From positions 1 through 63,042 of the forward strand of contig CANUDF010000003.1 of the NCBI GenBank assembly GCA_947857085.1: 63,042 bases of DNA, given 5' to 3'. Under the pieces are notes generated by a model that saw only the letters and a list, made by a program, of their open reading frames with translations, made no database searches and had not been told where the DNA came from. The stretch is from Candidatus Gastranaerophilales bacterium (GTDB taxonomy: Bacteria > Cyanobacteriota > Vampirovibrionia > Gastranaerophilales > Gastranaerophilaceae). Positions 1 to 59,312 of the stretch are shown piece after piece (the first letter of the stretch is position 1; the number at the start of each line of letters is the position of its first letter). Both the position numbers and the translations under genes were made by a program.

Positions 1-9
1 CCCCCCCCC
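1..9. repeat. Homopolymer tract, at least 9 C (G on the minus coding strand)
   Basis: Nine C residues at the window edge; the true length is unknown because the run may continue to the left. It lies inside the truncated leader gene and is one of only four G/C runs of nine or more in the window. Confidence 0.85.
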
Positions 10-2320: not shown

Positions 2321-3100
2321 ATGTTATTAACCTCTGATATAGGAAATACTAATATTACTCTGGGACTTTTTGACAACGAAGCTCTCGTAGAAGAATTTAG
2401 ATTGGCTTCTGATAAAGATTTATCATTAGAGGAGTATGAGGTCCTTTTAAAATCGTTATTTAAGGATTTTTCAATTGACGGCTGCATTGTAGGTTCAGTA
2501 GTTGAAGAGCTGAATAATAAATTTATGAAAGCAATAAAAAATGTTTTTGGTATTGAACCTGTTTTTCTTACAAACGATATAAACACAGGTGTAAAAATCA
2601 AAACGGATTTTCCTGAGGAAGTCGGTGCTGATAGAATTGCTAATGCAGCAGGGGCTTATGTTTTATATAAAAAGCCGACAATTGTTGTAGATTTTGGCAC
2701 CGCAACTACATTTGATATAATAAATGCTGACGGCGAATTTATAGGGGGCGTTATTGCTCCTGGTATTAATCTGCAAATGAAAGTTTTGAATAAATTTACT
2801 TCAAAACTGCCGAGAATTGATGTGGCTATTTCAAGAAAGGCAATTGGTCATAATACAACTGATGCAATTTTATCGGGCGTTATTAGAGGTGCCGCTTGTA
2901 TGATTGACGGTCTTGTTGAACAATGTGAAGAAGAATTGGGGCAAAAAGCTGTTCTTGTTGCTACAGGCGGTTATTCCGGTTTGATTGCTAATTATCTTAA
3001 AAGGCCTTTTGATTATATTAATCCAACCCTTACCCTTGAAGGATTGAGACACCTTTATAACTTAAATGTTGTAAGTGAATTGCAGAAAGTTGCCCATTAA
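2321..3100 (+). CDS. coaX: Type III pantothenate kinase
   Basis: It phosphorylates pantothenate with ATP, the first step of coenzyme A synthesis. The ASKHA-fold motifs are present: DIGNTNI at 6-12 (catalytic Asp6), GADR at 102-105 and DFGTATTFD at 124-132. At 259 aa the length is typical. The start codon follows a stem-loop directly. The last 39 bases overlap the end of rex on the opposite strand, so the two genes converge without a terminator. Confidence 0.93.
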   Translation: MLLTSDIGNTNITLGLFDNEALVEEFRLASDKDLSLEEYEVLLKSLFKDFSIDGCIVGSVVEELNNKFMKAIKNVFGIEPVFLTNDINTGVKIKTDFPEEVGADRIANAAGAYVLYKKPTIVVDFGTATTFDIINADGEFIGGVIAPGINLQMKVLNKFTSKLPRIDVAISRKAIGHNTTDAILSGVIRGAACMIDGLVEQCEEELGQKAVLVATGGYSGLIANYLKRPFDYINPTLTLEGLRHLYNLNVVSELQKVAH

Positions 3101-14336: not shown

Positions 14337-15193
14337 ATGAGAAAATTAATTAATGTAGGCCTCGGGGGGGGGGCAAAAAATTAACACCCTCTAAGCCAGA
14401 AGTTGCAGAAATTTCCAACTTGATTTATAATTCTAATATACAGCCTTATAAATCAAGAAAGGGAATTATGAAACATTACGGATTTACTTTAGCAGAAACA
14501 CTTATTACGTTAGGAATTATCGGAGTTATTGCGGCATTAACATTGCCAAGTGTAATGTCAAACTATAAAAACAAAACTTATGTTGCACAGCTGCAAAAGG
14601 TTTATAATCAGCTCTCCAATGCAGCTTCGCAAATAATGTTAGATGAAGAGGTGGATAATCTTGCAGATAGTTATTTATCAGAAACTGTTATAGAAGGAGA
14701 AGACAACTCTTCGGTTAAAGCTTCAGGGGCTGCAAAATTTATAAAAAAATACTTTAAAGTAACTAAAGATTGTGGATATGCAGCGGAATGGGGTGATTCT
14801 ACGGATTGTTTTGCGGAGACATATAAATCTCTGGGTAAAACAGAAACCTCATCACCGGCTATATCCTCTGGTTCATATTGTGCATCTTTAAATACAGGTG
14901 CATCTATATGTATTAATGTTATGAGTCAGGATAACAAAGAATGGGATGACCATGGATATTCTAGTGTTGCGGTTGATATAAATGGTAAAAAAGGACCAAA
15001 TATTGGAGGAAGAGACTTCTTTACATTCAGGCTGCATACCGATGGAAAATTAGGTGAGTCATATTTGCCTGATACATATCATGCCGGAGACAGATGTACT
15101 GATATGGGCTTTGGAGAAGATAATAATGCTGCTTTATATGGAGCAAATTGTTTTGATAAAATTGTAGGCAGCGGATGGTCAATGGATTATTAA
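14337..15193 (+). CDS. Type IV prepilin-like protein, leader split by a G10 tract
   Basis: An ATG at 14337 with AGGAGG upstream reads MRKLINVGLGGGAKN and stops at 14384 because the run of ten G shifts the frame. With eleven G it would read through to join the pilin frame, which contains MKHYG then FTLAETLITLGIIG. An in-frame ATG at 14468 with AAAGGG upstream gives the short leader MKHYG directly, so the pilin may also be made independently of the tract. The mature part is about 240 aa with several cysteines. It could be a phase-variable or recoded prepilin, or carry a homopolymer length error. Confidence 0.75.
14364..14373 (+). repeat. G10 homopolymer in prepilin leader
   Basis: Ten G residues after CTC. 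Eleven (or eight) would put the leader in frame with the pilin; ten leads to a stop 9 bases after the run. Confidence 0.9.
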
Positions 15194-38271: not shown

Positions 38272-38357
38272 ATCACGCTCGTTTGAGGCTTTTATATTGC
38301 ATTATTTTATTTTTTTTAATAGAATGTATATGTTAATAGATATAAGGAGTTAGGATT

Positions 38358-39826
38358 GTGAAGAAGTTTTTTGTAGAAAAATATAGACCATGTGAAACGG
38401 GGGGGGGGCAAAACTAAACTGCTCCAGGCTAGGGTTTACGCTAGCTGAAATGATGGTAGTAATGCTGATATTAACAATAGTATTAGCAGCATTTGCTCCT
38501 TTAATGACAAAAAGAAAAACAGTTGATTTAACCAGCCCATGGCGTTATGCTTCAAATAACAGCGATATATATTACGGGTTAGCTGATAGTCAGACCGCAA
38601 TGATAGGGCAAAATGAAAAGAAATCCAATGAGCCTAACGCAAAACTTACTATAAATACAAATCGGAGCAAACAGTTTCATATATTATTTAAGGATAGTGG
38701 TGTTACTCAAGGTGCTTTGTATATAGGTAACAATTTTATGCTTAATTCACGCGGACAATATACTTCTGATTTATCATCAGGAAGTAGGAATACTGCTTTT
38801 GGAAAGAGTACACTGGGCTCAATTATGAATGGAAGTTTTAATACTGCTTTGGGGGCCTATGCTTTAAGCAAAAATACTGCAGGTCAATATAACACTGCTG
38901 TTGGTGATGCAGCATTAAATAACGCAACAGCGAACTATAATACGGCAGTTGGGGCTTCTGCTCTACAAAATAATACAGGTGAATATAATGTAGGTGTGGG
39001 ATATTTGGCATTACTTAGTAGTAAGAATTCAGTAAATAATGTTGCTGTTGGTGCGATGGCATTACAAGACAATTCTGGTGGTGATAACAATGTAGCGATA
39101 GGTTATCAGGCTTGTGGAAATGTTACAGGTTCAAACAAAACTTGTATTGGTGCTAACTCAGGACCATCATATGATAATGATGCATCATATGATTCATCAA
39201 ATGTAGTATATTTGGGCACTTCAGACAGTACAGTATATATTCCAGGAAAACTTATTATTGAGGGTGAATTAACTGTTAATAACACATTCCATGCCGGTAG
39301 ACGGGATGCATACAGTATTATTGTGAATATCCCGGGGAAAAGCGGTTCAAGAAGTATAAGATTTAAAGATGCTGAACATGAAGTAAGGGAAGGTTATAAT
39401 AACTCTGCCGTTGATATGCCGTATTCTAATGATAATGTATATTATTCGGACAGACGGTTGAAAGATATAAAGGGTGAAAATAAGGACGGCTTAGAAAATA
39501 TAAGGGCACTTAAAGTATATAATTACACATTCAAAAATGATAAAGAAAAGAAACCTCAAGTAGGAGTAATGGCACAGGATTTAGAAAAAATATTTCCTGA
39601 CGCTGTAACAAAAGATGAAGAAGGTTATCTGAAAATACGAACGGATGATATTTTCTATACTCTTGTGAATGCAGTCAAACAGCTTGATAAAATTATAAAA
39701 GATGTAATTAATGATGTAAAAAGTCTTGCTGCTAAAGTAAATATTCATGATGAAGAAATAAAATATTTACAGGAGCAAAACAAAATGCTTGAAGAACGCA
39801 TAAAGGCTCTGGAATCAAAGAGTTAA
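38358..39826 (+). CDS. Prepilin/YadA-head/S74-chaperone fusion, leader split by a G10 tract
   Basis: A GTG at 38358 with AAGGAG upstream reads MKKFFVEKYRPCET, then enters ten G and stops at 38417. With eleven G it continues in frame through AKLNCSRLG to FTLAEMMVVMLILT, a prepilin cleavage site with Glu at +5. Next come repeated NTAxGxxAL units (38790-39170) like the YadA/trimeric-adhesin head. The C-terminal domain, with SDRRLK (39446) and QVGVMAQDLEKIFPDAV, is the S74 intramolecular chaperone of phage tail spikes, followed by a coiled coil. S74 domains normally trimerise the fibre and cut themselves off before the SD pair. Frame as assembled is broken. Confidence 0.78.
38399..38408 (+). repeat. 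G10 homopolymer in the adhesin-like prepilin leader
   Basis: Ten G residues. Eleven (or eight) are needed to keep the GTG at 38358 in frame with the pilin helix. The bases after the run (CAAAAC) resemble those after the tract at 14364 (CAAAAA). Confidence 0.9.
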
Positions 39827-58185: not shown

Positions 58186-59312
58186 CTAATCCGCTAAGCA
58201 AACCGCCTGAAAGAAGTTGTGGTTACGGTTGGTGAAGTCCCGGGCCATCTCGGTAAGGCCGAAAATGTGGGCGTATACGCTGTTCGTGCCAATCTCCTCA
58301 CCAGACCAGACGTAAAAGTAGCCTGAAGCGTTTTGTGTAAATCCTAAAGAAGCGACCTTGTCGTTGTCTATTGTTAATTTACCATTTATATCTGATGTTT
58401 TGTATACGTAATTCGCAATCTTAGCTAATTGATCTAATGTCGGCATCTTATTAACACCGCCGCAAGCCTCTACCGCCCCAGCCCAATAGTCACTTTTTCC
58501 ATAAGTTGAGGAGTTCATACATTTTTTTATTCCATATTTTTTCATAAATGCTAAATCATCTGAATCTGTTGTTTCTCCCTTTGAGTCACAAGCATTCCAT
58601 ATATGTGCATCGGGTTCAAACGGTGAGGTAAAACAAGTCCCGTCAGGCAGGCAAAATCCACCTTTGACGCCAGCCAGGCTTAAAACATTTTGATTATTTC
58701 TCAAATCTTTATTAACAGTATTAGGAGCTTTAAATCCTGATGTATCATATAATATAGCCAGGCAGTCACTTCCTGTGATTCGATTTGAATAAGGGTCTTG
58801 CTTACACTCAGGATTATACGCAATAACAGCATTAACACCGTTCGCAAATTGCACCCCGACAGTCTTGGTATCCCACTCCTCCTGTCCAAAACTTTCGGAG
58901 GTTTTAATGTCAGCCATTTCAACTTCTTCTATTTCTTCATTTTCTTTACCCCAATAAACTATATCAGAGAAACAAGAAGTTATATCGTCATTTTTACAAA
59001 TTTTAGTAATTTTAAAGTGTTTAGCTAATTCATTAACAAAACTTTCGGTATCTCTGTAACCTGCAAGTGTTTGCTGGGTGTTCATAACTTTCAAAGCTTC
59101 TTCAAGTTTACGTTGAAAAACCTTATCTGCTGTATTCCAAGCACGTGTTTGATAATTTTGCACCAGTGTTGGAATAGTAAGTGCTGCAATAATCCCGATA
59201 ATCGCCAGAGTTATCAAGACTTCGGCAAGTGTGAAACCTCTAAAACCTAAGCCATGTGTGGAGCTCGGGGGGGGGTGACTGCCTGAACCGCTTTTGTAGT
59301 AATTGTTTTCAT
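58186..59312 (-). CDS. Type IV prepilin-like protein, leader split by a C9 tract
   Basis: An ATG at 59312 with AAAAGGAGG upstream reads MKTITTKAVQAVTPP and then stops at 59247 because of a C9 run on the coding strand. With ten C it would read through PPPSSTHGLGFRG to FTLAEVLITLAIIG, a prepilin site with Glu at +5. The mature part, about 345 aa, ends in a Cys-rich domain with YWAGAVEACGG and VWSGEE. It is a paralogue of the partial gene at 62293, sharing QDPYSNxITGxxCLAxLYDTSG. The two flank the etf operon. Confidence 0.78.
59267..59275 (-). repeat. Homopolymer tract, C9 on the coding strand (G9 on plus)
   Basis: Nine C on the minus strand. Ten (or seven) would keep the start at 59312 in frame with the pilin. 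Here the tract encodes proline, not glycine as in the other two genes. Confidence 0.9.

Follow-up and report, generated by a model that had tools for sequence, protein, structure and literature searches.

The window analysed here is a 63,042-nucleotide stretch of DNA from a Candidatus Gastranaerophilales bacterium. It was found that a start codon in this window is followed by a run of ten G residues and then by a long open frame that combines a prepilin N-terminus, beta repeats, a Peptidase_S74 domain, and a coiled coil. The features are listed below, with the basis of each assignment in brackets; where no basis is given, it is the nucleotide sequence.

38344 to 38349, plus strand: Shine-Dalgarno sequence AAGGAG, 8 nt before the GTG
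38358 to 38417, plus strand: start-codon frame as assembled, GTG ... GGG GGG GGG CAA AAC TAA, 19 residues
38396 to 39826, plus strand: 476-codon open frame with prepilin, repeats, S74, and coiled coil (ORF translation)
38399 to 38408, plus strand: G10 tract in the leader-peptide coding region, a putative contingency tract
38432 to 38515, plus strand: prepilin cleavage/methylation motif G↓FTLAE and hydrophobic alpha1 helix, residues 11–38 (Pfam N_methyl, TIGR02532; helix at 14–35 in the model)
38783 to 39112, plus strand: NTAxGxxAL-type beta repeats, residues 128–237 (phrog_4636 match; model pLDDT 70–91)
39194 to 39271, plus strand: beta stalk preceding S74, xVYIPGKLxVxG (the stalk region of the MyRF ICA in 7dc3 aligns here, E 1.2e-9)
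39446 to 39610, plus strand: Peptidase_S74/intramolecular chaperone core (PF13884; motif invariant in 25 homologues)
39446 to 39451, plus strand: predicted self-cleavage site Ser349↓Asp350 (S74 motif)
39641 to 39820, plus strand: C-terminal coiled coil, residues 414–473 (single long helix in the model)
14364 to 14373, plus strand: second G10 tract, in the leader of another prepilin (ORF about 14420–15193), out of register
59267 to 59275, minus strand: sense-strand C9 tract, out of register, in the leader of a prepilin encoded on the minus strand

In the assembly, the frame set by GTG 38358 differs from the pilin frame, so the gene looks switched off. The former runs into the stop codon TAA at 38415–38417, directly after the G10 tract. 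The latter is closed upstream by TGA at 38393–38395, has no start codon between that TGA and the prepilin motif GFTLAE in the assembled sequence, and ends with TAA at 39824–39826. All three modules thus form one uninterrupted ORF that is not joined to a start codon as assembled. The initial annotation had spoken of a predicted read-through protein, and this wording was accurate, since the start-codon frame and the three-module frame differ. It had also considered that the pilin helix and the repeats might be separate genes; they form a single gene here and also in homologous copies without the tract. The G/C runs of the window comprise none of length 6–8 and four of length 9–10. As is typical of a contingency locus, a homopolymer of at least nine residues lies within the coding sequence of the gene, with an intact frame beyond it.

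The proposed combination of a prepilin site with its helix, repeats, and an S74 domain with a coiled coil in one protein was borne out by Pfam, NCBIfam, and the open frame. The class III prepilin signal is present (G↓F, Glu at +5, hydrophobic helix); Pfam N_methyl matches residues 10–30 with 25.4 bits against a cut-off of 21.2, and the NCBIfam model TIGR02532 for the GFxxxE prepilin domain also scores above its cut-off. About seven N[TV]xxG units lie between residues 128 and 237. The tail-spike family phrog_4636 matches residues 169–286 (E 1.2e-22), and several other phage tail-spike/fibre families cover the repeats plus S74. Peptidase_S74 matches residues 349–403 with 57.5 bits (cut-off 22, E 1.6e-15), and all of the SDxRxK residues are kept. 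With a profile of 25 homologues, the PDB matches were the MyRF intramolecular chaperone 7dc3 (E 1.2e-9) and the phage tail fibre 8jov, with a weak match to the phi29 neck appendage chaperone 3gud; a phmmer search of the PDB with the single protein gave chance matches only. The S74 domain and the repeats are extra non-pilin modules of the kind that defines a modular pilin.

The repeats had been described as YadA-type heads. However, neither Pfam YadA_head nor the YadA anchor matches any of the 25 family members, and the best matches of the repeats are the phage tail-spike/fibre families. A YadA-type trimeric autotransporter was rejected, as Pfam detected neither the head nor the C-terminal anchor barrel and the protein ends in S74 and a coiled coil.

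The AlphaFold monomer has a mean pLDDT of 62.7. Most of the protein, the S74 region included, is poorly modelled, but the repeats (residues 121–240) reach 70–91 and the C terminus forms a long helix. Poor modelling of S74 as a monomer would be expected of an intertwined trimer, although it is no proof of one. Foldseek found no significant fold match of the monomer model in the PDB. Against viral predictions, it found phage proteins whose annotation names this auto-processing domain, including repeat/ICA proteins, at low TM-scores.

The gene belongs to a family. There are four copies in its own genome, one of which (on contig C6) is truncated by a contig end, and all the S74 domains of this genome lie within these four pilin paralogues. 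Every one of the 16 genus genomes has the family, and 41 further loci, nearly all labelled Gastranaerophilales, were found when species genomes were scanned. Thus, the three-domain order, which the initial annotation had proposed to look for elsewhere, is found throughout the genus. In an alignment of 25 full-length homologues, FTLAE and S349-D350-x-R352-L353-K354 are invariant; mutation of the SD cleavage pair in relatives lacking an S74 fold had been envisaged, and the pair is unmutated in all 25. By a simple pattern count, the homologues have 1–23 repeats, a wide range that resembles length-variable fibres. Only a minority of them have a homopolymer tract. One homologue has, upstream of the match in locus L042 (about 2980–3033), an apparently interrupted tract, GGGAGGGG, with the start frame closed and the ORF intact.

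The paralogue on contig C4 has a G10 tract in register with its start. The two genes share about 50–60% DNA identity over most of their length but about 99% over some 90 bases that run from the tract into the pilin helix (window 38398–38490 and L008). Since the tract-bearing leader is nearly identical between otherwise diverged paralogues, this pattern suggests gene conversion or the spread of the switch as a cassette. In another leader family, a 20-base block 3′ of the tract shows 85% identity, while its surroundings show 30–58%.

Is such a tract common in this organism? A plain scan for nine Gs on either strand found 88 distinct G/C tracts of at least nine residues in the 1.75 Mb genome, against about 0.75 expected from the dinucleotide composition. 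Tracts are present in 16 of 16 genus genomes, with 11 to 102 in each. Prepilin (N_methyl) loci number 93–96 in the genome analysed and 16–114 in its relatives, and the tract and prepilin counts correlate over the 16 genomes (r 0.85). When the neighbourhoods of the tracts were inspected, at least 61 in the genome of the window gene were found to lie between a Shine-Dalgarno sequence with a start codon and a prepilin motif. On the sense strand, G tracts as well as C tracts occur. Nine is the commonest poly-G length, followed by ten, and this distribution matches that of phase-variable Campylobacter tracts (PMC6321876). Within leader families, there are copies with 9, 10, and 11 bases in differing registers, one assembly being available per species. 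Control by the G tract, as proposed in the initial annotation, therefore has far stronger support than could be known from this locus, with at least 61 leader tracts of differing lengths and registers.

From start to cleavage site, the leaders have a median length of 50 residues (range 17–168), far longer than the 7-residue leader reported for S. sanguinis PilB (PMC8179133). From what is known of pilin biology, a leader tract could switch expression while leaving the mature protein unaltered, because prepilin peptidase removes the leader. Translated fragments of dispersed repeats also occur in prepilin leaders (e.g., CHCERPTGASQSH and ILNLFQDL; L009, L018, and loci of G003 and G010); they are apparently tolerated there because the leader is cut off.

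Several other observations were made around the tracts. Of 96 prepilin leaders, 70 have a CTCC/CCTC stretch 3–26 nt 3′ of the G tract, whereas 5 and 7 show one in control intervals; this strong enrichment is partly due to shared ancestry. The stretch, e.g., at window 14374–14400, is complementary to poly-G and to the Shine-Dalgarno sequence. In L036 and L038 on contig C7, the G10 tracts fall within non-pilin ORFs or at their ends, and in L036 a long upstream frame of 273 codons continues through the tract. In many contigs of this genome, a tract lies no more than about 50 bases from the contig end (e.g., C31, C44, C45, C69, C75, C76, and window 1–9), which would be expected if the assembly is broken by repeats in the leaders or by polymorphism in length.

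Most of the leader tracts are out of register in the assemblies. In the genome of the window gene, this holds for 54 of 61 (44 in the main out-of-register class and 10 in the other), with 7 in register, and three relatives (G003, G004, and G010) are similar. Among 114 classified tracts from six genomes, four of which supply nearly all, 13 are in register and the others form two out-of-register classes of 80 and 21. The out-of-register share is above two thirds (p 1.3e-7), with the leaders related by descent. The larger class also holds the majority in 10 of the 12 leader-sequence clusters of the genome analysed. The out-of-register loci have intact pilin ORFs, of 203–463 codons where the stop codon is in view; it follows that these genes are expressed occasionally or were switched not long ago.

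The 80/21/13 asymmetry is unlike free random switching. It may be that the tracts serve chiefly for programmed slippage, either a ribosomal −1 shift or polymerase slippage, which would give a low constitutive pilin level from a conserved out-of-register arrangement with no switch in the DNA. The dominance of one class fits this, as does the fact that the dominant register is the one that a −1 slip would join, and the class dominates among G9 (48 of 53), G10 (13 of 25), and C9 (18 of 19) leaders, and also in four species. However, most members of a second leader family, the MGANTHYHYFAS type, have the other register and would not be joined by a −1 slip, and in-register copies with other tract lengths occur in the same leader families (L113, L138, L180, L182, and L206). 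The leaders also share descent, so the counts are not independent. Folding gives the mRNA around the tracts no more stable a structure than shuffled sequences have (mean z −0.2), and a hairpin controlling the tract was rejected on the same folding energies. I consider programmed slippage unlikely: the leader family in the other register and the in-register members with different tract lengths favour switching, which leaves the asymmetry itself unexplained.

It is more improbable still that the assemblies systematically call G/C homopolymers one base too short, so that in-register genes look out of register. The excess class is indeed the one expected from the loss of one base, but the pattern is also seen in assemblies with SPAdes- or MEGAHIT-style contig names, which probably derive from short-read data. 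In addition, tracts of 10, 11, 12, and 15 were called, some G10 tracts such as that of the C4 paralogue were called in frame, and the leader family in the other register would need a different error.

Almost no credence can be given to the idea that the gene is a captured phage tail fibre or a broken, non-functional prophage remnant with a pilin-like N-terminus by chance: its repeats and S74 do best match phage tail-spike/fibre families, but its flanking genes are of a housekeeping kind with none from phage (a Na:alanine symporter, an HD-domain protein, and ApbA-like and UDG-like genes), a viral sequence collection searched with the gene gave no match, and the pilin motif and S74 are kept together in the genus with invariant catalytic residues.

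Thus, the gene probably encodes a phase-variable modular minor pilin, located at the pilus tip, that displays an S74-matured trimeric fibre and belongs to a genus-wide pilin phasome. This reading builds on the domain order, the intact motifs, the register, the conservation of the family, the genome-wide placement of the tracts, and the pilus genes. The genome has one prepilin peptidase (A24_N) and four loci for ATPases of the T2SSE family, one of them inside the window and bearing an MshEN domain; therefore, a type IV pilus is probably available. Anchoring by the pilin helix, as originally proposed, is supported by these genes together with the N_methyl motif. The prepilin peptidase would remove the long leader with its G tract, so that the glycines encoded by the tract would be absent from the mature protein, which would then be inserted by its pilin helix. 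The repeat shaft may trimerize with the assistance of the S74 chaperone, and the C-terminal chaperone and coiled coil would be lost by self-cleavage at Ser349↓Asp350. The resulting fibre, putatively adhesive, would be presented on the pilus, probably at its tip. A change in the length of the G tract would turn the gene on or off, as one part of a genus-wide prepilin repertoire under like control. Since most of the tract genes are out of register in the assembled consensus, each cell probably displays a small, changing subset of pilins.

There are precedents for the parts. Among the modular type IV pilins listed by Raynaud et al. (2021, PMC8179133), the architecture IPR012902-IPR030392 shares with the window gene a pilin N-terminus followed by an S74 domain, so the suggestion of a new adhesin class was too strong; what stands of the initial annotation is the domain order, the pilin anchor, the S74 motif, and the control by the G tract, and what falls is the YadA head and the new class. 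In the passages of that paper on this architecture, S74 is read as a possible, unstudied peptidase function, and no repeat shaft, trimer, or role of phase variation is proposed. The Bdellovibrio MAT fibres are a precedent for an S74-matured adhesive fibre: they are described as trimeric fibres used for recognition, and the S74 serine is required for their cleavage (PMC10769870). Like the fibre proposed here, they are encoded by the cell, are built as beta trimers, and have a self-cleaving S74 (SDxxxK) at their end. They differ in having a signal peptide and a beta-rich N-terminal domain of ~130 aa instead of a pilin helix, and, unlike for the window gene, the account of these fibres there mentions no homopolymer tract (PMC10769870). 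The trimeric minor pilins CofB and TcpB have been modelled at the pilus tip, and the homotrimeric CofB is a precedent for a trimeric tip fibre, although their distal domains are other ones, without S74 (PMC7248040). Switching by poly-G/C is well known: in Neisseria (pilC) and Campylobacter, genes for pili or the cell surface are switched by coding tracts of about 9–20 residues (PMC5953494, PMC6321876). Here, in contrast, it is the prepilin genes themselves, dozens of them, that carry tracts in their leaders. Phage tail spikes with an intramolecular chaperone, of the endosialidase or phi29 gp12 type, share S74 and a repeat shaft with the window gene, which differs in being pilin-anchored and chromosomal in a non-phage context. 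I know of no phase variation in CofB or TcpB, and of no earlier homopolymer phasome in the phylum.

Gastranaerophilales are uncultured, non-photosynthetic relatives of the cyanobacteria whose interaction with the host is little known. Full-text searches of open-licence papers found no phase variation in this group, nor any description of the present combination or of leader-tract control over prepilins on this scale. Each component (a modular pilin, an S74 fibre, a homopolymer contingency locus) is known, and the greater surprise is the pilin phasome across the genome; such a leader-tract repertoire is apparently undescribed so far. One may go further, tentatively and with less confidence than for the phase-variable tip pilin itself, and imagine a bank of some 16–114 prepilin genes per genome, many of them actively held out of frame behind leader tracts, from which rare slippage in DNA, transcription, or translation frees one or a few at a time. 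This would be a stochastic system of pilin identity with its switch in a disposable leader and with leader cassettes copied between genes. The catalogued but unstudied architecture of a pilin with S74 gains a functional reading, as a trimeric, self-maturing tip fibre instead of a protease borne on a pilus. If true, a leader-switched pilin repertoire this large would be among the larger homopolymer phasomes.
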